From: an uncultured bacterium
GTDB taxonomy: Bacteria; Bacillota_I; Bacilli_A; RFN20; CAG-826
Assembly (NCBI GenBank): GCA_949297445.1
Contig: CASFSS010000015.1
Coordinates: forward strand, 1-32,178
DNA length: 32,178 nt
Direction of reading: 5' to 3'
Under the pieces are notes generated by a model. It had not been told where the DNA came from and ran no database searches. It saw nothing but the letters and a program-made list of their open reading frames with translations. Positions 6,657-30,000 of the stretch are shown here, piece after piece. How positions within the stretch are numbered: the stretch's first letter is position 1; each line of letters opens with the position of its first letter. A program made the translations under genes and the position numbers.

Positions 6657-9644
6657 ATGAAAAGTAGCATTTATTTTATCACAGACTGTCATTTTTCTGA
6701 AAAGTATGACATTGATAAAAATAAAATAGATTCGTTAGGACAAATTATTAAGATAGATTCAAATCCGTTTATTTATTTGGCTATTAGTGGCGACATTGCT
6801 TTTAGCGGAAGAGCCAGCGAGTATAAATTATTTTGCAATTTTTTTGATGATATCAAAAAAATAAGTAAAAAAGATATTAAATTAATAGTTTGTCCCGGAA
6901 ATCATGATATTAATTTTAACAATGAAGAATATTCGCTCAAATCACTTATTAATGATACGGCAAAAGAAAATGTTGGAGCTGCATTTGAAAATAGAAAATC
7001 AAAAATTGCATCTTATCAATCATTTGAAAGAATGAACTCCAATTTAAAATATATTGATGATTTTTTATCTTTTTTATCCTTTAATAAAGATGAAAAAGAA
7101 ATTATATTTTACTCGCTTAATAACGTGCTTTTTTCCTGTTTTGGAAGCGAAAATAGTAGTGATGATACTAGAAATTATGCTTATTTGTCCGAACAAACAA
7201 TTCGCAATATTAAAAGAAAAAATCCAAATCAAATAGTATTTCTTTTAATGCACTTCCCTATTACTTATTTTAATGATAAAATTGGCAAAATATTAAAAGA
7301 AAGGATTATAAAAAACGTTGATGTTATCTTAAATGGCCACTTACATGTTTCAGAGAAAAAGATGATTGTTGATAAAAGCAATGTTGCAATCATACAAGGA
7401 GATTATTTTTCAGTAAACAACGGAGATGATAATGGTTCATTCGTCAAAATTGACTTGAGTAAAAACGAATATGTTGAGTTTAAATGGGAAAATGAATCGT
7501 ATATTGAGCAAGACGATATTGTCAAATTAGATCTCAAAGCTTCTAGATGGAATTCACTTAATGTTTCTTTTAATAATGATTTTTATTTAGAACTTACTCA
7601 ATGCGATATTTTGGATAAAAAGTTTAATATTAATGACATATTTGTTTTTCCGTATTTATGTAGCGAAAAGTATGAAGATTTTGACGATAACGAAGTAATA
7701 AAAGATTTTTCATCGTTTTTATTAAAAACAAAAAACAATCGTTTTATTTATATATATGGCTATGAAGGAAGCGGCAAAACCTCTTTATCTAAGTATTTGA
7801 CTTTATTATTTTTTAATGAAAATTATTTTCCGGTTTTATGCGACGGAGATCAATTTTCAAAAGTAAAAGATTTCGACAAACATATTAGAAATAGGATAAG
7901 AGAAATGTATTCTGATTCTACTATCAGTAAGTTCGAAAACGAAATACTTTTTTCTAATAAGGTTCTTATTATTGATGACTATTCTAGTTACAACAATGAG
8001 TTTTTGTCTAAAGCTAGTGAAGTATTTAAATCCATTATTGTTGTGTTCAAATTAGATAAAAATAAATTACTTAATAAGCCGATTTCAATTAATGAAACTA
8101 AAGTTTTGGAATACACGATTCAGCCGATGGTCAAGTCGAAGAGAAAAGAGTTTACATATAAAATATATGATGCCCTAACGAGCCTTGGTGAAAAGTCCAA
8201 TTTAACTAAAGAAAATTTTTTTCTTTTTGTTGAAAAACAATTAAATACTTTGGCAATAAATGATATATGCGATCCGATTTCATTGGCTTACCTTGAAATT
8301 AATTCGTTTCATCTTTCTGATGCTTTTGATAACACATTGTTTTCAAATGTTAATCAGGCTAAATCTTTATTAATGCTTGATAATGTTATAAAAAGAAAAA
8401 AATATAACTGCAATATTGATTCTATCAATAGAATGATGTCTTACATAGCATACGATATGTATAAAAACAATAAACAAGACTTTTCTATAGAAGATATTAG
8501 TAAAGCATTTGAATATGAAACTGATAATTATGGCGATCCAGAAATTAAACAATATGATATTTCTCAGTTAATGCTTGATACTTTGATTGCAAAAGAATTG
8601 GATAATAGAAACCTAACATTTTTTAATAGAGATATTTTTTCTTATTATATTGCATTGTATATAAATATTCAAATTGGCGAGGGAGATAATTCGCTTTTCA
8701 TTGATTTATTGAGTAAAGATATTTTTGTTCCACTAAATTTTAATATTTTGATGTGTCTAGCTTCAATATATAAAAATATTACTATTCCAAATACAATAAT
8801 TGATTTAATATCAACTCAAATCAAAGATATGCCTTTGTTAGATGAAAAGAATTTTTCGATTTCTGGCATAACGAAAGAAAAGCAAGAAGAATTAAAAAGA
8901 TTAACGCGTGAAGATATTATTAAAATCAACGAAAAACAAGACGAATACGAAAGGCAACAGCACGACGCTTACTTAAAAAACAAAGATAACCTATATTATG
9001 TTGAAGCTGTTCCACATAGAGTTAAAGAAATTTATACTTTATTTGATAAATTAAAAATATGTTGCGTTCTTTTAAAAAAACTTAATACATCTATAAAAAA
9101 AGCATATAAAGAAAAACTAATTAATTTAATCGTTTCGTTGCCTAACATAATCCTATATCAATTTAACGATTATTTATTTAAAGAATTGGATAATTTGTAT
9201 GCAGCATTAAAAGAGTATCTCACTAATAAACCTAGTTCATCAGTTATTTCTGATTTTAACAATTTTGTTATTTCAACCAAGAGAGCTTTTATTTTATCTA
9301 CATATGACTATGGTTCAAGATGCATCGCTGATAAAACAAGCAAGGATTTACTCAAAAAGTTCATAGAAGATTCAAATAGCGAACTTAAAATTGTACAAAA
9401 TTTAATGTTTAAATCATTTTTTATTGATGAGGATTCCTTTATTAAATTTTGCTCTAGCCTTATTAATGACAAAAAATACAAAGAAAATTCATTTGTAAAA
9501 GCATCTGCAAAATTGATTGGAAGAAGATATATTGTTGATAATTATGAAACATGTGTAAAAAAATACAGAGATTTTGTTGGATTAGTATTTAATTCGCCAA
9601 AAGAAGCATTAAGGCATACAATTAAAAATAAAATTAAAAAATAA
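6657..9644 (+). CDS. Metallophosphoesterase-NTPase fusion, probable defence protein
   Basis: 995 residues; ATG follows AAGGAGAAA. Residues 1-~265 form a calcineurin-like phosphoesterase with every metal-binding motif: D10-x-H12, G45-D46, G81-N-H-D84, H199 and G227-H228-L-H230. Residues ~330-600 carry a P-loop NTPase with Walker A GYEGSGKT (368-375) and Walker B VLIIDD (436-441), typical of STAND/NACHT-like ATPases. The remaining ~400 residues are helical, Lys-rich and unrecognised; in such proteins they usually serve as sensor. Calcineurin-like effectors joined to STAND NTPases are described in bacterial conflict systems. The gene is very AT-rich, stands alone, and lies between recombinase debris and chromosomal genes, as defence islands often do. 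The substrate (nucleic acid or nucleotide) cannot be read from sequence. Confidence 0.7.
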   Translation: MKSSIYFITDCHFSEKYDIDKNKIDSLGQIIKIDSNPFIYLAISGDIAFSGRASEYKLFCNFFDDIKKISKKDIKLIVCPGNHDINFNNEEYSLKSLINDTAKENVGAAFENRKSKIASYQSFERMNSNLKYIDDFLSFLSFNKDEKEIIFYSLNNVLFSCFGSENSSDDTRNYAYLSEQTIRNIKRKNPNQIVFLLMHFPITYFNDKIGKILKERIIKNVDVILNGHLHVSEKKMIVDKSNVAIIQGDYFSVNNGDDNGSFVKIDLSKNEYVEFKWENESYIEQDDIVKLDLKASRWNSLNVSFNNDFYLELTQCDILDKKFNINDIFVFPYLCSEKYEDFDDNEVIKDFSSFLLKTKNNRFIYIYGYEGSGKTSLSKYLTLLFFNENYFPVLCDGDQFSKVKDFDKHIRNRIREMYSDSTISKFENEILFSNKVLIIDDYSSYNNEFLSKASEVFKSIIVVFKLDKNKLLNKPISINETKVLEYTIQPMVKSKRKEFTYKIYDALTSLGEKSNLTKENFFLFVEKQLNTLAINDICDPISLAYLEINSFHLSDAFDNTLFSNVNQAKSLLMLDNVIKRKKYNCNIDSINRMMSYIAYDMYKNNKQDFSIEDISKAFEYETDNYGDPEIKQYDISQLMLDTLIAKELDNRNLTFFNRDIFSYYIALYINIQIGEGDNSLFIDLLSKDIFVPLNFNILMCLASIYKNITIPNTIIDLISTQIKDMPLLDEKNFSISGITKEKQEELKRLTREDIIKINEKQDEYERQQHDAYLKNKDNLYYVEAVPHRVKEIYTLFDKLKICCVLLKKLNTSIKKAYKEKLINLIVSLPNIILYQFNDYLFKELDNLYAALKEYLTNKPSSSVISDFNNFVISTKRAFILSTYDYGSRCIADKTSKDLLKKFIEDSNSELKIVQNLMFKSFFIDEDSFIKFCSSLINDKKYKENSFVKASAKLIGRRYIVDNYETCVKKYRDFVGLVFNSPKEALRHTIKNKIKK

Positions 9645-10824: not shown

Positions 10825-12120
10825 ATGTATGAGCCAAAAATGACTTTGTCAAAGGAAGAGCTCGCTATTTTAAATGGTGCAGAAGGTCCTACCAAAGCCA
10901 AAATAATGGAAACAATTGTCCGTTATGGTGATATTTTTGATGCAAAAAGGTTAGTTAAAGTAACGCACGGCGAAGGCCACTTAGTTACTTCGTTCGGACT
11001 ATCGTTATTGAAACCTATTTATCGCATCATGGACGAATTTATTGCCGCGGGTTTAAAGGTGGAAGAAGGTTTTACGATGGATCCTCGCCCACTGGATAAT
11101 GAGAACGTTCCTTATTCGCTTTTAGATCGTTTAATCAATGAAAAAATACTTTATGGCGCTCAAAGTAGATATGAGGAACAATTGACAAAATTAGGATTAA
11201 TAAGTCCCGATGCTTTTAGTTGTGCTTGTTATTTAAAAGAAATGGGCAATTTGCCAAAGAAAGGCGACATTCTTTCCTGGGCCGAATCGAGTGCGGTGAA
11301 TTACGCTAATTCGGTCCTTGGAGCACGCTGTAACCGCAATTCCGGCATGATAGATATAATGGGCTCGCTGATTGGTTATGTGCCTGAGTTTGGTCTATTG
11401 ACCGATGAAGGGCGCAAGGCGACATGGAAAATAATCGTCAAGACAACCAAAAAGCCTGAAGCTCAAATTTTAGGTTCCGCCATCGGCTTAAAAGTCATGG
11501 AAGATGTTCCTTATATCGTCGGTTTGGATAAATGGTTAGGTGAAGATTTAACCGATGAGACATTGGATTATTTAAAAGATATGGGAGCGGCCACAGCCTC
11601 TAACGGTGCGGTTGGCTTATATCACGTCGATAAACTAACTCCCGAAGCAAAAGAATTAAAAGAAAGTTTGCTCGTTCCAAATTATAAAGAATATGTCATC
11701 GATGATGAGGAATTAGAAAGAGTTTATAAATCTTATCCAATCATGTGGAAAAAGGTCGATAAGGAAGGTCAACTAGCCTTTATTGGCTGCCCACATTTAT
11801 CGCTCTCTCAACTAATTAGCTGGACCAAGCGAATCGAGAAGGCTTTAAAAGCCAGCCATGTGGACAAAGTTAGGATACCAACTGTCTTATGCTCGGCACC
11901 AGCGGTGATTGAAGAGTTTAAAAAGCGTCCCGAATACGAGCGTTTGCTCGCGACCGGAGCGAAGCTAACATACATTTGTCCACTCATGTACACTTCTAAT
12001 CCCTTGACGCATAAAAAGCGCCTGATGACTTGCTCCAATAAGCTAAGAACTTATTCGCTCGCTCGCTTTTACAAAGAAGATGATTTATTATCGATTATTG
12101 CTGGAAAGGAGAACAAATAA
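10825..12120 (+). CDS. Aconitase X catalytic (large) subunit
   Basis: 431 residues, ATG after AGGAGGAAA. This matches the AcnX family (DUF521/PF04412): N-terminal THGEGHLVTSFG, then SCACYLKEMGNLPKKGDIL followed by WAESSAVNYANSVLGARCNR, a family hallmark, then GCPHLSLSQL. Probable Fe-S ligands are among C133/C135, C322, C385 and C403. The family dehydrates hydroxy-acids: characterised members are cis-3-hydroxy-L-proline dehydratase and the archaeal phosphomevalonate dehydratase of the modified mevalonate pathway. The substrate cannot be decided here. Its TAA overlaps the ATG of the small subunit, as expected for a two-chain enzyme. No mevalonate or proline genes are nearby. Confidence 0.85.
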   Translation: MYEPKMTLSKEELAILNGAEGPTKAKIMETIVRYGDIFDAKRLVKVTHGEGHLVTSFGLSLLKPIYRIMDEFIAAGLKVEEGFTMDPRPLDNENVPYSLLDRLINEKILYGAQSRYEEQLTKLGLISPDAFSCACYLKEMGNLPKKGDILSWAESSAVNYANSVLGARCNRNSGMIDIMGSLIGYVPEFGLLTDEGRKATWKIIVKTTKKPEAQILGSAIGLKVMEDVPYIVGLDKWLGEDLTDETLDYLKDMGAATASNGAVGLYHVDKLTPEAKELKESLLVPNYKEYVIDDEELERVYKSYPIMWKKVDKEGQLAFIGCPHLSLSQLISWTKRIEKALKASHVDKVRIPTVLCSAPAVIEEFKKRPEYERLLATGAKLTYICPLMYTSNPLTHKKRLMTCSNKLRTYSLARFYKEDDLLSIIAGKENK

Positions 12121-12560
12121 TGAAAACATTTTATGGCCGCCCGCTCGCTAATGGCGAATATGTTGGTGAAGCGGTCGTTTCTCGTCAAGGTGTCAACACA
12201 TTAGCCACTTTCCAATCATCGGTTTTAATGGGCAAGAAAAAAGTTGCCTGTTCCGATCAAAATAATCCCGATATTTATAAGAAGAATTTGACTGGTGTGG
12301 CTCTTTGCTTGCCTAAGACAATCGGCTCAACGACTGGCGGAATGGTGCTTCAAGTTGTTTGTTCAATGAAGATCAATCCAGCGTGTTTGCTTTTTTCTGA
12401 AAGCATCGATTCTCTTGCGGCGGCCGGTGTCGTGCTCGCGAAGGTGTGGGAAAATAGCGACATCGTGGTTATCGACCGTCTCGGAGAGGAATTTTTAAAT
12501 ACAGTTCAAACCGGCGATAAAATTCATGTTTATCCCGATGGAAAAATAGAAATAGAATAA
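12120..12560 (+). CDS. Aconitase X swivel (small) subunit
   Basis: 146 residues, close to the family length. It matches the AcnX small-subunit/swivelling domain (DUF126, PF01989): N-terminal GRPLANGEYVGEAVVS, ALCLPKTIGSTTGGMVLQ with the conserved Ser in GSTTG (G69-S70-T-T-G73) that contacts substrate, and a C-terminal barrel end TGDKIHVYPDGKIEIE. It begins one base before the end of the large-subunit stop and has GGAAAGGAG upstream, so the pair is translationally coupled. It completes the active site at the interface with the large chain. Confidence 0.85.
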   Translation: MKTFYGRPLANGEYVGEAVVSRQGVNTLATFQSSVLMGKKKVACSDQNNPDIYKKNLTGVALCLPKTIGSTTGGMVLQVVCSMKINPACLLFSESIDSLAAAGVVLAKVWENSDIVVIDRLGEEFLNTVQTGDKIHVYPDGKIEIE

Positions 12561-12570
12561 GGAGACGAAG

Positions 12571-14631
12571 ATGAACAAAGTTTATGAACCATTATTCACC
12601 CCGTGGAAAATTGGCAATTGTGAGATTAAAAACCGCATTGTTTTAACTTCCATGGGTGGCACCTGCTTATTTGGCTTTGCCGAGCCAAATCACTGGGACA
12701 AAGAGGCCGCTAAGTTAATCTTAGAGATTGCTAAAAATGATTGCGGACTAATTTTACCCGGCATTGCCCCTTTACAAGATTTAATTGGCAGTAAATGGCT
12801 TTACCAAGGCAAGGCTAAATTTAAAAAGTTAAAGGCATTCATGGATGAAATACACGCGACAGGCGCTAAACTATTCGTTCAATTGACGGCCGGCTTTGGT
12901 CGTTCTTTTGCCGTGACACCATTAATGGAAACACTTTATAAAAATCCTGTAGTGAGAACTTTAACTAAACCGATTATTAACATTGAACGCTTGACTTGGT
13001 GTCCGAGTGAAAATCCAAATCGCTGGAGCGATTTAGTTAAGTCAAAAGAAATGCCGGTTGAATATATCGAAAAATTGATTGATGCGTTTGCGAGAGTTTC
13101 CGTCTTGCTTAAAGAAGCCGGGGTGGATGGTGTCGAAGTGCACGCCGTTCATGAAGGTTATTTACTCGATCAATTTACTTTAAAATATGTCAATCGTCGG
13201 CAAGATAAATACGGTGGTTCTTTTGAAAATCGTTATCGCTTTGCCGTTGAAGTTGTCAAGGCTATTAAAAAGGCTTGTGGTAAAGATTATCCTGTTACAT
13301 TGCGATATTCGGTCGTTTCAAAGACGAAAGGTTTTCGTGAAGGTGCATTGCCCGGGGAAACAGATTATGTCGAAGCCGGTAGAGATTTAGACGAAGGTAT
13401 TAAAGCCGCTAAATATTTAGAGGAAGCCGGCTATGATATGCTCAATTGCGATAACGGTACATACGATGCTTGGTATTGGTCGCATCCGCCGATGTATATG
13501 CCACAAAACTGCAATTATCTAGAGGCGGAAGCGGTTAAAAAAGCAGTTAAAATTCCTGTTGTTGTCGCCGGAAGAAATGAACCTGATTACGCTGCAGAAG
13601 CAATTAAAGAACATCGTATTGATGCCATGGGTGTCGCTAGACAATTCCTTGCCGACCCTGCCTGGGTTCATAAATTGATTAATGACGATATCGAGGATAT
13701 TCGTCCTTGCATTTGTTGCCATAATGGATGTTTTTCACTTTGCCATTATAACGGTGTTCCCAATGATCAGCATCTTCATGAGACAAAAGCAATGTGTCAA
13801 TGTGCCGTTAACCCAATGTCTATGAATACAAAAAGATATTATATTAAGAAAACAAAACATCCAAAGCATGTTGCGGTTATCGGCGGTGGTATCGCCGGAA
13901 TGGAAGCGGCGCGCGTTTTGACTTTACGCGGTCATAAAGTAACTCTATATGAAAAGGGCGATAAACTTGGTGGTGTCTTTGTGCCGGCTGCCTCTTTTGC
14001 TTTTAAAGAAAAAGACCGCGCTTTGATTGCGTGGTACATAAGGCAAATTAAAAAGTTAGGTGTGGAAATCGTTTTGAATAAAGAAATTAGCGACCCGCGT
14101 TCACTTGCTGTCGATGATTATGTAATCGCTACCGGCGCCAAAGCGCGCACATTACATATAAGCGGCATCGATAGAGCAGTTCCGGCAATTGATTATTTAA
14201 ATAATCGTTCGCTCGTGAAGGACAATGTCATTATTATTGGTGGAGCTTTAACCGGCTGTGAAATCGCTTATGAACTTCATAAAGAAGGCAAGCATCCTAT
14301 CATCGTTGAGATGCTCGACGATTTGATTAAGGTGCATGGCGTTTCATTAGCTAACTCTTCTTTCTTACGCGATTATTTTAAATTGCATAAAGTGCCAACG
14401 TATTTAAAACACACCGTTAAGGAAATTAAGGAAGATGGAGTAATTGTCACGAATGAAGAAGGCCAAGATGTCTTCATTAAAGGCGATTCGGTAATTTTGT
14501 CGGTCGGTTATTATCCGACGCCACTCAATAACGAAAATCATAATTTAGCCGGCGATTGTAAGCGTGTTGGTAATATTATGACAGCCGTTTGGAGCGCCTG
14601 GGATGTTGCCATGTCCAAACGTTTCTCATAA
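12571..14631 (+). CDS. FMN/Fe-S/FAD oxidoreductase of the FadH-BaiH family
   Basis: 686 residues, ATG after AAGGAGACG, ten bases behind the AcnX small subunit. Residues ~5-370 form an old-yellow-enzyme TIM barrel (LFTPWKIGNCEIKNRIV; GVDGVEVHAVHEGYLLDQFT; GVARQFLADPAW). The 4Fe-4S site is C380-x2-C383-x3-C387 plus C411 in the CxVNP-type loop. An FAD Rossmann motif GGGIAG lies at 438-443 and an NAD(P) motif IIIGGALTGCE near 550. The length and order fit 2,4-dienoyl-CoA reductase, BaiCD/BaiH and enoate reductase relatives. These reduce activated C=C bonds, so the natural inference is that it reduces the unsaturated product of the AcnX dehydratase. The real substrate is unknown. Confidence 0.85.
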   Translation: MNKVYEPLFTPWKIGNCEIKNRIVLTSMGGTCLFGFAEPNHWDKEAAKLILEIAKNDCGLILPGIAPLQDLIGSKWLYQGKAKFKKLKAFMDEIHATGAKLFVQLTAGFGRSFAVTPLMETLYKNPVVRTLTKPIINIERLTWCPSENPNRWSDLVKSKEMPVEYIEKLIDAFARVSVLLKEAGVDGVEVHAVHEGYLLDQFTLKYVNRRQDKYGGSFENRYRFAVEVVKAIKKACGKDYPVTLRYSVVSKTKGFREGALPGETDYVEAGRDLDEGIKAAKYLEEAGYDMLNCDNGTYDAWYWSHPPMYMPQNCNYLEAEAVKKAVKIPVVVAGRNEPDYAAEAIKEHRIDAMGVARQFLADPAWVHKLINDDIEDIRPCICCHNGCFSLCHYNGVPNDQHLHETKAMCQCAVNPMSMNTKRYYIKKTKHPKHVAVIGGGIAGMEAARVLTLRGHKVTLYEKGDKLGGVFVPAASFAFKEKDRALIAWYIRQIKKLGVEIVLNKEISDPRSLAVDDYVIATGAKARTLHISGIDRAVPAIDYLNNRSLVKDNVIIIGGALTGCEIAYELHKEGKHPIIVEMLDDLIKVHGVSLANSSFLRDYFKLHKVPTYLKHTVKEIKEDGVIVTNEEGQDVFIKGDSVILSVGYYPTPLNNENHNLAGDCKRVGNIMTAVWSAWDVAMSKRFS

Positions 14632-14691: not shown

Positions 14692-15381
14692 TTAATAAAA
14701 TAGGGTAATTGATTCAATAAAAACTCGATTGTAATCATCACCAACATTATTGATTGTCAATATTGTTGTCGGATTTTCTAATGCGAATTCACAAGTTTGG
14801 ATTTCGCTTTCAGCCTCTGTAGCGCTTGGTAATGGATAACTATTTTGATAAGAGCTGGCTTCAACTTCTAGCACGCAATCGCTATCGTTATTAAAATAAG
14901 TATTTCCGCCATAGGAATAGCTTTTAAAATAAGAGCGACAGGCAATCTCAAAACCTATAATTTTTTCAAAGAAAGTAAAAGTTAGATTACCTTCACTACT
15001 GCTTGAGCCTATGGTTAATTTATTTTTGCTTGTTCCGTCGGCGAGGCCGATATTTTGAATATAAACATTTTGACAATCAATTTCTTCCAAAATAGTGGAT
15101 TCTTTATTAAATAAAGCGATAAAAGTGTCTTTGTGTTTGTCAATTCCAGTGCCTCCACCTATTTCTTGCACATCATCAAACGAAACAGAATAAGAATTTT
15201 CGTATGTTGGTGGCTCACTGGTTGTGTCGCCGGTTGTATCACTTGTTGTGTCGCTAGATGATTCGCTAGTAGAATCGCTAGTAGTTGTTGATGTATCATC
15301 GCTCGTTATTGAATTTTTTGGCGTGCAGGCCGCCAATGCAAAAACACCAAACAACGTTAAAAATAAACTTAATTTACTCAT
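14692..15381 (-). CDS. Lipoprotein of unknown function
   Basis: 229 residues. The start is ATG at 15381, preceded by AAGAGGT, not the longer upstream frame. MSKLSLFLTLFGVFALAACT is a clear lipoprotein signal with the lipobox LAAC cut before Cys19. A low-complexity Ser/Thr/Asp linker (~24-58, repeats of SDTTSDTTGDTT) follows, as in wall-spanning stalks. The remaining ~170 residues form a beta-rich extracellular domain (SYSVSFDDVQEIGGG, GNLTFTFFEKIIGFEIACRS) resembling repeated surface modules in related bacteria, without catalytic motifs. It is divergent from the sigma-factor gene with only 88 bases between starts, so it may belong to the same regulatory circuit. Confidence 0.75.
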   Translation of the reverse strand: MSKLSLFLTLFGVFALAACTPKNSITSDDTSTTTSDSTSESSSDTTSDTTGDTTSEPPTYENSYSVSFDDVQEIGGGTGIDKHKDTFIALFNKESTILEEIDCQNVYIQNIGLADGTSKNKLTIGSSSSEGNLTFTFFEKIIGFEIACRSYFKSYSYGGNTYFNNDSDCVLEVEASSYQNSYPLPSATEAESEIQTCEFALENPTTILTINNVGDDYNRVFIESITLFY

Positions 15382-15396
15382 AATTTTTACCTCTTT

Positions 15397-15424
15397 TTTA
15401 TAATAACACTTTTTTATGACCCAA
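15397..15424 (-). promoter_or_regulatory. Candidate promoter of the lipoprotein gene
   Basis: Read on the minus strand: TTGGGT, 16-bp spacer, TATAAA, then the ribosome site AAGAGGT. It lies in the 88-bp divergent region shared with the ECF sigma gene. Confidence 0.4.
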
Positions 15425-15469
15425 AGGATGCTTTTAAATTGTAATATATTATGAGAAGGGCCTCTCAAC

Positions 15470-15982
15470 ATGTTATCAAGCAAAACGATAAAAGCGTTAA
15501 ATTCAACCAATCTTGTTGAAAGAGACGAAGCATTTAAAGCTATCTACGACAAATATAAGTTCCTTTGCTACTATGTCGCTTTAGGTATAACAAAATCGAA
15601 AGAAATGTCTGAAGATATTGTTAGCGATACCTTTATTGAACTCATTAAAAGAAGCGGTTCAATAGCTAGTGAAGGTAACTTAAAAAGTTATTTAGCAATA
15701 ACTGCTAAAAACAAGGCAATCAACCAAATTAAACAGAGTGAAAAAATTGTCACAATCGACGAGGAAGTTCCCTCTGATGACCAAACTATCATTGATGACT
15801 TTGCCAGTTATGTAGAACAATTTTCAAGATTCTTGAATGAAGAAGAACTAGATTTAGTGGTTTATAAATTTTTGTACGGCTTTTCTTTTAAAGAGATTGC
15901 TCAATTATTTGGCAAGACATTTGATGGCGTAAAGAGTAAATATCGACGAACGATAGAAAAAATTCGTCAAGAATATCGTTAA
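15470..15982 (+). CDS. ECF-type sigma-70 family sigma factor
   Basis: 170 residues. Region 2 spans ~18-60 (DEAFKAIYDKYKFLCYYVAL ... EDIVSDTFIELIKR, then YLAITAKNKAINQIK) and region 4 spans ~120-168 (LVVYKFLYGFSFKEIAQLFG followed by the recognition helix KTFDGVKSKYRRTIEKIRQEY). Regions 1.1 and 3 are absent, which defines the extracytoplasmic-function group. The serpin gene follows after 14 bases with its own ribosome site, in the position where ECF operons usually encode the membrane anti-sigma factor. The start is ATG 15470 with GAGAAGGG upstream. ECF factors usually activate their own promoter; no clear ECF consensus was identified. Confidence 0.85.
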   Translation: MLSSKTIKALNSTNLVERDEAFKAIYDKYKFLCYYVALGITKSKEMSEDIVSDTFIELIKRSGSIASEGNLKSYLAITAKNKAINQIKQSEKIVTIDEEVPSDDQTIIDDFASYVEQFSRFLNEEELDLVVYKFLYGFSFKEIAQLFGKTFDGVKSKYRRTIEKIRQEYR

Positions 15983-15996
15983 AGGAGCTCATTAAA

Positions 15997-17445
15997 ATGG
16001 AAGAACTTAAGCAAAGAGTAAAAAAAGATTTAGAGAGTAAAACGAACGCTAGCTTGGTGTGCCCTGATGTTGAAAATATAAAATGTGTCAATGGACGTGT
16101 AAAAAAACCAGTTCCTTGGAAAATTATCGTTCCCTCAGTGGCAGGCGGGTTATGTCTAACATTAATACTTGCCGTGGCAGGCATTGCAATAAGCACGATG
16201 ATATCTTTTGATGATAGTTTCAAAAAAACCGAACGAAAGTACTCACAAAATGAGATAGATATCGCGCTTAGTAATTCCTTTTCTGCCCTTAATTCAGTTA
16301 CCTTCCCTAGTGAAAATTATAAAAACATTAGTGTTGACGAACAATTCGCTTTGTCCATGAATACCTTTGGCGAAAAAATATATGATGCGTTAGAAGTTGA
16401 TTCCGATAGCAACTTGTTGCTTTCTCCAATGACTTTATACGCAAATCTTGCCATGCTTTTAGAATCAACTAGCAATCAAACAATAATCGCTGCGATGGAA
16501 GAATTATTAGGAAGCGATTTATCGACGATCAAAGAGCAATATAAGAAAGCTTATGAAAATGATTATTATGTTATGACAAACGGGACAATCCAAATGTATA
16601 ATGGTGTTTTCTTAAGCAATCTACATGAAGTCAATATGGATTATATTGATGCACTTAGTTCATATTACGCTGAAGCTTTTCAACTAGATTTTATGAATGA
16701 AAACGATGTTCAAAATATTATAAATTGGTTATCGGATAGAAGTGGCAATCAATTGATTGATATAAATGATTTAGATATCACTATATATACGAGATGCCTT
16801 CTTTTTTCAACACTATATTTTAAAAATAATTGGAAATTTAATTTTGATGAAAACGCCACTTATCAAGATAAGTTTTATCTAGACGGTAGTGAGACAAAAA
16901 ATATCGATTATATGCGGCATTCTTTATTTGGCAGTTATTATGACTATGGTGATTATATTTCTATTTACGATTATTATAGTTATGGTTCAAAAATTAAATA
17001 TATTGTGCCGAAATCATTAGATGATAACATCCATGAATTGATTAGTGATACAAATATATTTGTCGATGATGCTAGCAAGATTGTTGATGATTCAATCATC
17101 GATTTAAGCGTTCCGAAAATTAATCTTTCATCAAGTTTGGATCTTTCTAAGACAATTGCTCAATTTAATTTAGAATCAATCTTCAATATCAATAGTTTCG
17201 ACAAGATGTTTGAGCAACCGGTAAATGAAAATATATATCTTGAATATATTAAACAGGCAAATAATATTAGTTGGGATGAAAGTGGTACAACAGTTCAAAG
17301 CATTACATTAAATATGCTTGCTTCAAGCACAGCCCCCGCGGTCAATGGCGGCATTGAAATTAAACTGAATCAGCCGTTTATCTTTATCATTTATGATTCA
17401 AATGATTTACCTTTATTAGTCGGCGCTATAAATAATCCTAGTTAG
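15997..17445 (+). CDS. Membrane-anchored serpin in an anti-sigma position
   Basis: 482 residues, ATG after AAAGGAGC. Residues 1-42 are a charged cytosolic segment, 43-67 one transmembrane helix, ~70-110 a linker, and ~112-482 a complete serpin fold outside the cell: NLLLSPMTLYANLAMLLEST (helix B), FSTLYFKNNWKFNFDE (strand 3A), NISWDESGTTVQSIT (breach and hinge, 423-437) and PFIFIIYDSNDLPLLVGAINN (C-terminal strands). Counting G430 as P15 puts P1-P1' near S444-T445, within LASSTAP, which suggests an elastase-like target. Inward-facing hinge residues (T, V, S, T) are small enough for inhibitory loop insertion. Topology resembles an anti-sigma factor, but no zinc-binding anti-sigma domain is visible in the short cytosolic part. 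Confidence 0.85.
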   Translation: MEELKQRVKKDLESKTNASLVCPDVENIKCVNGRVKKPVPWKIIVPSVAGGLCLTLILAVAGIAISTMISFDDSFKKTERKYSQNEIDIALSNSFSALNSVTFPSENYKNISVDEQFALSMNTFGEKIYDALEVDSDSNLLLSPMTLYANLAMLLESTSNQTIIAAMEELLGSDLSTIKEQYKKAYENDYYVMTNGTIQMYNGVFLSNLHEVNMDYIDALSSYYAEAFQLDFMNENDVQNIINWLSDRSGNQLIDINDLDITIYTRCLLFSTLYFKNNWKFNFDENATYQDKFYLDGSETKNIDYMRHSLFGSYYDYGDYISIYDYYSYGSKIKYIVPKSLDDNIHELISDTNIFVDDASKIVDDSIIDLSVPKINLSSSLDLSKTIAQFNLESIFNINSFDKMFEQPVNENIYLEYIKQANNISWDESGTTVQSITLNMLASSTAPAVNGGIEIKLNQPFIFIIYDSNDLPLLVGAINNPS

Positions 17446-17953
17446 ATATTTTTTCAAGCGTGGTCGCTAAATATTCGCTGATTTCCTTAACATCGTCACG
17501 ACAATTACCGTCGATCCAAACTTTTACAACGATTTGGATGATTGCAATTTTAGTTGCAAATTGATATTTCTCATAGCCGCCGTAATTAAGCTTTGTAACG
17601 TAATCGTTTCTATATCGATAAAAAAGTAAAGAGCGATTGGTGGTCTTTGTGTCTGTCAAGTGACGTTGATTAACTAATTGATTATTAAAATGCTCTTCAA
17701 TCGCTTTTACCAAGGCTTCATGATTAGGAGCATTTAAAATTGCTAAATAGTCTCTTTTGCTTGCTTCGATGGTTTTTAATCCTACCGCTTTATATAATTC
17801 ATCGCGTGTTTTAAAGTAGCGATAATATGACATTCTTGAGACACCAGCTCGCCTAACAATATCAGTAACTGATATTGAACTATATAGTTTATCAGCAAGC
17901 AATTGATCAGTTGCCTCAATGATATAATCGCGAGCATTTGGGTGTTTATCCAT
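17438..17953 (-). CDS. TetR/AcrR-family transcriptional regulator
   Basis: 171 residues, ATG preceded by AAAGGAGG. The N-terminal DNA-binding domain is clear (~8-55): DYIIEATDQLLADKLYSSIS, then VTDIVRRAGVSRMSYYRYFKTRDELYKAV, the TetR helix-turn-helix. The helical C-terminal part should bind a ligand and dimerise but is too variable to name one. The gene converges on the serpin gene; both stop codons sit in CTAGTTAG and the coding regions overlap by 8 bases. It diverges from the lipid kinase gene, whose upstream region has phased TGTAAC repeats, so it may control that gene and itself. Confidence 0.85.
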   Translation of the reverse strand: MDKHPNARDYIIEATDQLLADKLYSSISVTDIVRRAGVSRMSYYRYFKTRDELYKAVGLKTIEASKRDYLAILNAPNHEALVKAIEEHFNNQLVNQRHLTDTKTTNRSLLFYRYRNDYVTKLNYGGYEKYQFATKIAIIQIVVKVWIDGNCRDDVKEISEYLATTLEKISN

Positions 17954-29001: not shown

Positions 29002-30000
29002 ATGCCTAAAGTTAAATCATCAAGAAACAAAACAATCGATTTCACGGAGGAAGAAGGAAAGGTTTACATAGATCGTTGTATTTATGTAAAAGATATTCGT
29101 GGTGTCGACAGTGTCATCGATAAGACTATTATTGGTGATACTTTTGAAGCTCTTAAGAAGTTGCCTTCAGAATTTGTGGATTTGTTAGTGGTGGACCCTC
29201 CATATAATCTCGCAAAGAATTATCACGGCAACAAATTTGGAAAAACAAATAACGATGCGTACAAAGAGTACACACGTCAGTGGATTTCAGAATGTAAAAG
29301 ATTGTTAAAAAAAGAAGGGTCTATTTATGTTTGCTGTGATTGGGAGTCGAGCCTAGTTATTGGAGAAGTTCTATACGAGTTCTTTCATGTGCAAAACAGA
29401 ATTACATGGCAAAGAGAAAAAGGTCGTGGTGCTCTTTCAAATTGGAAGAATGGAATGGAAGACATCTGGTTTGCAACTAATTCAAAGAATTATGTTTTCA
29501 ACGTTGAAGATGTAAAAATTAGAAGAAAAGTTATTGCTCCATATAAAGTTGACGGAAAACCAAAGGATTGGGAAGAAACGGGCGATGGTAATTACCGTAA
29601 TTCTTATCCATCTAATTTCTGGGATGATATTTCAATTCCTTATTGGAGCATGCCTGAGAATACAGAACATCCAACTCAAAAACCTGAAAAGCTTATTGCT
29701 AAGCTTATTTTAGCAAGCAGTAACAAAGGTGATATCGTTTTGGATCCATTTTTAGGGTCTGGAACTACATCTGTTGTCGCTAAAAAGCTTGATAGACATT
29801 ATGTTGGAATTGAACAAAACCCTAGATATTGTGGATGGGCAGAATATCGTATTGAGTTAGCCGAAACCGATAAAGAGATTCAAGGATATACAAATGGTGT
29901 TTTCTGGGAAAGAAACACTTTAAGTGAACAAAACAAGGCAAAATCCAAAAAGAATGGGGGCAAAGAGAAATGTTCTATGATGGACCTATTCAACGACTAA
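29002..30000 (+). CDS. Beta-class DNA adenine methyltransferase
   Basis: 332 residues, ATG behind AAAGGGA. Motif IV DPPY (65-68, in LLVVDPPYNLAKNY) comes first and the SAM-binding motif I DPFLGSGTT (248-256) near the end, preceded by EHPTQKPEKL; this order defines the beta group with HinfI/CcrM-type enzymes. DPPY points to N6-adenine. The central part (~110-200), with WQREKGRGALSNWKNGMEDI, holds target recognition. The first 40 residues are an extra charged head. The last 31 bases overlap the nuclease gene, so the pair is coupled. Recognition sequence cannot be deduced. Confidence 0.9.
   Translation: MPKVKSSRNKTIDFTEEEGKVYIDRCIYVKDIRGVDSVIDKTIIGDTFEALKKLPSEFVDLLVVDPPYNLAKNYHGNKFGKTNNDAYKEYTRQWISECKRLLKKEGSIYVCCDWESSLVIGEVLYEFFHVQNRITWQREKGRGALSNWKNGMEDIWFATNSKNYVFNVEDVKIRRKVIAPYKVDGKPKDWEETGDGNYRNSYPSNFWDDISIPYWSMPENTEHPTQKPEKLIAKLILASSNKGDIVLDPFLGSGTTSVVAKKLDRHYVGIEQNPRYCGWAEYRIELAETDKEIQGYTNGVFWERNTLSEQNKAKSKKNGGKEKCSMMDLFND

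Follow-up and report, generated by a model that had tools for sequence, protein, structure and literature searches.

In a 32,178-nucleotide stretch of DNA from an uncultured bacterium of the CAG-826 lineage (contig CASFSS010000015.1; hereafter the window), we identified a gene for an extracytoplasmic function (ECF) sigma factor followed directly by a gene for a single-pass membrane protein whose extracellular part is a serpin. We consider it likely that the two genes form an RsiV-like ECF unit, with the second protein as transmembrane anti-sigma factor and its serpin domain as the sensor of an extracellular protease. Comparison of sequences across genomes supports this reading with a conserved gene pair, a tie between the cytosolic head and the sigma gene, independent origins, joint losses, an autoregulatory-type promoter and, in one relative, the same promoter in front of a serpin target. 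Binding of the head to the sigma factor, a protease as the signal, a conformational relay, regulated intramembrane proteolysis and release of the sigma factor are the steps that we infer. The elements of the pair are as follows:

15470..15982, forward strand: ECF-type sigma factor gene, 170 residues, sigma2 and sigma4 domains, matched in Pfam and NCBIfam.
15997..16122, forward strand: cytosolic head (residues 1–42), the presumed anti-sigma domain; predicted helix at residues 2–15, no zinc motif.
16123..16200, forward strand: single transmembrane helix (residues about 43–68); AlphaFold2 helix at 41–68, hydropathy peak at residue 42, preceded by basic residues.
16201..16344, forward strand: extracellular juxtamembrane segment and serpin N-terminal extension (residues about 69–116), with conserved motifs YS..E / SF..LN..YP.
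16345..17442, forward strand: serpin domain (residues 117–482), with Z scores of 35–41 against serpins in the PDB.
17272..17353, forward strand: hinge and reactive-centre loop (residues 426–452), with P15 at G430, P1 by count at S444 and the tip ASSTAPAV.

The sigma factor matches Pfam Sigma70_r2 (PF04542, E 8.4e-9) and Sigma70_r4 (PF04545, E 7.9e-5, just under the cut-off) as well as NCBIfam sigma70-ECF (TIGR02937, 71 bits, cut-off 42.9); its two domains and its length, within the roughly 170–200 residues of this group, place it among ECF sigma factors. After 14 bases, the open reading frame at 15997–17445 (forward strand) encodes the 482-residue single-pass membrane protein. An earlier interpretation of this DNA from its letters alone (the sequence-only reading) had proposed this order of ECF sigma gene, 14-base gap, head, transmembrane helix and serpin, and its coordinates were exact. 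The 42-residue head is rich in charged residues, and the motifs of the juxtamembrane segment and N-terminal extension are kept across the clade. Pfam Serpin (PF00079, E 8.5e-43) covers residues 121–481, and the AlphaFold2 model (mean predicted local distance difference test score, pLDDT, 86.8) superimposes on solved serpins over residues 102–482 with Z up to 41; from residue 93 onward the model can be aligned to the N-terminal portion of native tengpin (PDB 2PEE). By both full-length domain and fold the protein is a serpin, and it is the sole one in its 1.12-Mb genome.

The gene pair was found in all seven best relatives in a search of 58 genomes, with differing flanking genes. For a wider sample, we pooled 204 distinct serpin open reading frames from two profile searches, covering 279 genomes at the level of the order and 395 at that of the class, and from a scan of named genomes, and scored separately for each a transmembrane helix at residues 32–80 and an adjacent sigma gene. 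Every serpin with a head and transmembrane helix lay directly downstream of a sigma gene (66/66), as against none of 115 other serpins. Both traits were present in 66 serpins and neither in 108, seven had an apparent head without a sigma gene, and the remainder were cut by contig ends. We rejected the seven as artefacts: either their starts had been called too far 5′ of a lipobox, or they lacked an N-terminal transmembrane helix altogether. The coincidence of head and sigma gene gives a Fisher p of about 4e-51, for sequences that are not independent of one another. That the pair reflects chance neighbours or an assembly artefact is barely credible, given 68 sigma-serpin pairs across many genera and several families, in which strand and spacing are conserved and flanks differ; in 27 of the 68 the genes overlap by four bases. 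The gene order that was to be sought in other genomes thus recurs widely among uncultured gut-type Bacilli, with several independent origins.

Sigma linkage changed repeatedly in the history of these serpins. A tree of 189 serpins shows at least six changes on supported branches, an IQ-TREE tree of 50 rows forces at least six, and in none of the 200 bootstrap trees of the latter were the sigma-linked serpins monophyletic. Besides the main clade, which holds the window protein, these comprise a small separate clade (L162, L163, L175–L177), L153, a set nested among secreted serpins (L154, L165–L169) and members of another secreted group (L170, L172, L219, L223, L225). In all six independent comparisons, head presence goes along with sigma linkage (p 0.031 by sign test). 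Change counts alone cannot separate gain of linkage from loss, but several gains are favoured by the position of sigma-linked groups within secreted serpins. Conversely, main-clade members that lack the head (L050/L066, L051/L064, L060, L135) have no adjacent sigma gene, and L060, L135 and L050/L051 start with a signal-peptide-like segment or just a short stub. Three lineages have lost head and sigma gene together: in genomes G141 and G063 no cognate sigma gene is present genome-wide (best paralogues about 105 bits, as compared with up to 237 for cognates), and G150 is too incomplete for its genome-wide loss to be judged.

The slot after the sigma gene is also informative where no such serpin is present. 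We collected 31 sigma genes of the same subfamily that are not paired with these serpins (from 27 relatives that lack these serpins and from the second ECF locus of the window genome itself), and in 29 of them the next gene encodes a single-pass protein with its transmembrane helix at residues 34–63; one of the two exceptions sits at a contig end. Their ectodomains vary, from a beta-propeller (PF09826, L236) to several domains without a Pfam name. Since similar short heads with different ectodomains follow the same sigma subfamily, the head probably represents an anti-sigma module that can be swapped between ectodomains. Two proteins in this position are themselves serpin-like: the ectodomain of L240 (G057) is a divergent serpin (PF00079, E 8e-13), and L256 (G025) has a serpin-like C terminus with no Pfam match. 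They are perhaps further origins of a serpin ectodomain.

The main doubt voiced in the sequence-only reading was that the short head shows no zinc anti-sigma domain. The observation held, since the HxxxCxxC motif (H-x3-C-x2-C) of zinc-type class I factors occurs in 0 of 68 serpin heads, but it lost weight as an objection. Established anti-sigma factors include class I members without zinc and two-helix class II members (PMC7406223); a missing zinc motif therefore does not argue against such a function, and zinc-less heads of similar size follow almost every sigma gene of the subfamily, including the second of the window genome, which weakens the doubt further. Searching Pfam with the whole protein at E up to 1 returned only Serpin, with no match to the RsiV domains DUF4179 and DUF3298, and a domain search with the head alone gave no credible match. 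Class II (CnrY-like) factors wrap two short helices around sigma4 and sigma2; in the window model we observed the helix at residues 2–15 and a low-confidence turn at 25–27.

In the mechanism that we propose, the short cytosolic head would keep the sigma factor at the membrane, with the extracellular serpin as receptor. An extracellular protease would cut the reactive loop, which would then enter the central sheet in the irreversible serpin switch. Loop insertion may perturb the membrane-proximal N-terminal extension and make a site-1 cut possible, with signal peptidase as one candidate enzyme. If a tether were bound while the serpin is stressed and let go on insertion, cleavage would be coupled to the segment next to the membrane. 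An M50 intramembrane protease could cut after the site-1 step and free the sigma factor, which would then drive transcription of the operon that encodes it as well as, in at least one relative, of a secreted lipoprotein serpin. The window genome encodes one M50 protease and one signal peptidase.

The last of these steps draws on a promoter motif, of which the window carries a candidate copy:

15418..15448, forward strand: putative autoregulatory promoter of ECF type, GACCCAAA - N13 - TTGTAATATA, with its end 21 nt upstream of the sigma start.

In the main clade, the motif CGAC[AG]AAA-N13-TTGT[TC]TTATT stands directly upstream of the sigma start with fixed spacing. It is strong and constantly spaced in about 27 of 49 clade operons, and most bearers reach leave-one-out scores of 20–28, shuffled maxima being mostly below 13; L002, a relative of the same genus as the window, has an intermediate score of 15.8. 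Across 273 genomes the exact motif occurs 20 times and its reversed control not at all, and 18 of the 20 sites are located upstream of sigma genes. The other two precede lipoprotein genes. One of these (L279) encodes a lipoprotein serpin that is truncated where the contig stops, and a near-identical, longer copy on another contig of the same genome (L018) has an inhibitory hinge. The conserved promoter thus fits autoregulation of the sigma gene and, in one relative, a serpin target. The second lipoprotein (L280 1501-2123, G199) has 190 residues. Secreted serpins as general targets were rejected, the motif being present in 0 of 120 upstream regions and the reversed control in three, which makes L279 a single example; the one-mismatch sites L284 and L285 were also set aside as chance-like.

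Assignment of the reactive-centre loop was based on an alignment of 60 serpins and a comparison of loops. With P15 at G430, P1 falls by count on S444, in agreement with the cleavage position near residue 444 suggested previously. The hinge proposed at the same time was borne out in its P15 glycine; residues P14–P9 are T-T-V-Q-S-I and do not show the small-residue pattern of inhibitors. The distance from P15 to the next conserved strand is 26–31 residues in the window's clade versus 24 in secreted sister serpins. In the AlphaFold2 model, residues 430–441 form an inserted strand and the tip (441–452) is disordered; the solved structures that match it best are serpins in the cleaved or latent state.

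Several observations weigh against the protease-sensor reading. The inhibitory consensus at P17–P9 is ExGTEAAAA (PMC8233489). The window hinge is ESGTTVQSI, and the whole main clade departs from the consensus with EDGT-[IVT]-[VIA]-K-S-[VIL]-[TS]. V-Q-S-I or V-K-S-V in place of AAAA at P12–P9 makes protease trapping by this clade doubtful and loop insertion itself putative. The loop is already inserted in the predicted model, which, if real, would represent a relaxed resting state; it may instead arise because the method tends to favour the state of low energy. The promoter copy of the window is weak (leave-one-out score 2.1, within the shuffled range), its position and 13-nt spacing matching the clade. 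Contact between head and sigma factor was modelled on relative L049, fused in frame through a 2-residue linker. This fusion, strained by its linker, gave a predicted template-modelling score of 0.45 and a pLDDT of 47–56 in the second half of the head, with no confident contact. Unpaired head rows, which were misaligned onto the sigma factor in joint alignments, were dropped from these.

The hinge and the inserted loop also bear on an alternative in which the head is an anti-sigma domain and the serpin body senses a small ligand or binding partner, with no loop cleavage required. Hormone-binding serpins are non-inhibitory ligand binders. A non-inhibitory-type hinge throughout the window's clade and the loop-inserted model would suit such a role, as would the presence of ligand-binding corticosteroid-binding globulin among the best structural matches and of a biliverdin-binding serpin as the closest solved sequence (E 4.7e-24). 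We nevertheless regard a ligand sensor as unlikely. Several independent sigma-linked clades keep EAAAxT or a close inhibitory-type hinge, the hinge being canonical or near-canonical in these clades and in secreted relatives, and the lipoprotein serpin in the putative regulon of one relative has a canonical hinge. Conservation, furthermore, is lower in the loop tip than in the hinge or the C-terminal part, which would be expected of a bait. Since its hinge is of the non-inhibitory type, the window serpin may report cleavage without inhibiting the protease; the likeliest reading is that of a cleavage sensor freed from the need to hold its protease. The tip ASSTAPAV, rich in Ala, Ser, Thr and Pro, would be suited to elastase-like enzymes.

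A further alternative, which we judge to be quite improbable, is that the protein is a membrane-tethered protease shield made under sigma control, with a non-regulatory head and a sigma factor controlled by other means. The autoregulated appearance of the promoter accords with it, and so does the membership of serpins in ECF operons of some Clostridia (L091, L093, L098, L103, from metagenome-assembled genomes of Clostridiaceae and Mageeibacillus). There, an ECF sigma gene shares an operon-like array with genes for one or two secreted serpins and with a distinct gene for a single-pass anti-sigma-like protein, and the serpins are likely ECF targets. However, these serpins carry signal peptides and no head, and the anti-sigma gene stands beside them. 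The window operon has no such additional gene, as its neighbour shows:

17438..17953, opposite strand to the pair: TetR regulator gene, the next gene downstream.

As this gene lies on the other strand, there is no third operon gene to supply an anti-sigma factor, and the separate anti-sigma gene whose presence would have told against the sequence-only reading is lacking. The head also tracks the sigma gene across independent gains and losses, and short-headed single-pass proteins occupy the post-sigma slot throughout the subfamily. The protein may act as a shield in a side role, an explanation that by itself leaves the head unaccounted for.

Elsewhere in the window, a gene for a Ser/Thr-rich lipoprotein without known domain (14692-15381, reverse strand) is divergent from the sigma gene and probably begins near 15381, not at the sigma-overlapping TTG at 15510. 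Aconitase X (PF04412), a small open reading frame and an FMN/NAD oxidoreductase follow one another at 10825-14631 as an unusual metabolic cluster. A 995-residue protein with metallophosphatase and P-loop parts (6657-9644) matches the candidate defence family PDC-S60 (E 5e-13), and a Type II DNA methyltransferase (29002-30000; PADLOC, E 1.6e-71) is overlapped at its end by another open reading frame.

A search of 5.4 million open-access papers returned no relevant paper on serpins with ECF sigma or anti-sigma factors. The pair shares its architecture and logic with known transmembrane anti-sigma factors; the serpin as receptor, acquired several times, appears to be new. The functions of bacterial serpins have been termed enigmatic (PMC8233489), and a serpin in the ECF sensor position offers them a concrete, testable role in which proteolysis is reported to transcription. 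If correct, our reading would extend the known routes of anti-sigma activation by an irreversible mechanical switch, parallel RsiV in that the receptor reads the threatening enzyme directly, and indicate how gut bacteria might sense proteases of host or competitors. Its repeated origin suggests that the design works, and with an exchangeable loop it might serve as a genetically encoded protease reporter.

The closest known counterpart is the sigmaV/RsiV pair. RasP, an M50 protease, acts in the destruction of RsiV. Both systems combine an ECF sigma factor with a single-pass partner that has a short cytosolic head, one transmembrane helix and a helix-forming region just outside the membrane, and the window genome has the signal peptidase and M50 protease. 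In Bacillus subtilis, RsiV is an anti-sigma factor that serves as a lysozyme receptor (PMC4183432, PMC5014341, PMC6066255): its ectodomain meets and binds the threatening enzyme, membrane-adjacent helices unshield the signal-peptidase site, and intramembrane proteolysis follows, which frees sigmaV (PMC6066255). The window ectodomain, in contrast, is a serpin unrelated to RsiV domains; the enzyme sensed would be a protease, and activation would be analogous by our inference. With class II (CnrY-like) anti-sigma factors the predicted head shares its shortness, the lack of the zinc motif and two predicted short helical segments, the second at low confidence, whereas the ectodomain differs and docking on the sigma factor is without a confident prediction; no sequence match to these factors emerged, no search aimed at one having been made.

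As a serpin, the window protein resembles tengpin of Thermoanaerobacter (2PEE native, Z 37.0; 2PEF latent, Z 38.9) in having the bacterial serpin fold with an N-terminal extension. In native tengpin, the stressed state is stabilised by the N-terminal tail, which docks on a patch near strand s1A (PMC8233489); a stabilising role for the extension of the window protein is putative, and neither a transmembrane head nor a sigma partner has been described for tengpin. According to the passage in PMC8012564 that cites it, the serpin of Bifidobacterium breve is protease-inducible under the control of a two-component system, so that there, too, a gut bacterium ties protease exposure to serpin expression; as described in that passage, however, sensing falls to the two-component system, and the serpin is what is produced rather than the receptor. 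The serpin-serpin-sigma-anti-sigma operons of Clostridia likewise tie serpins genetically to an ECF sigma factor, but their serpins are secreted and headless and their anti-sigma factor is separate. This effector-type layout strengthens the reading of the headed serpin as a regulator.
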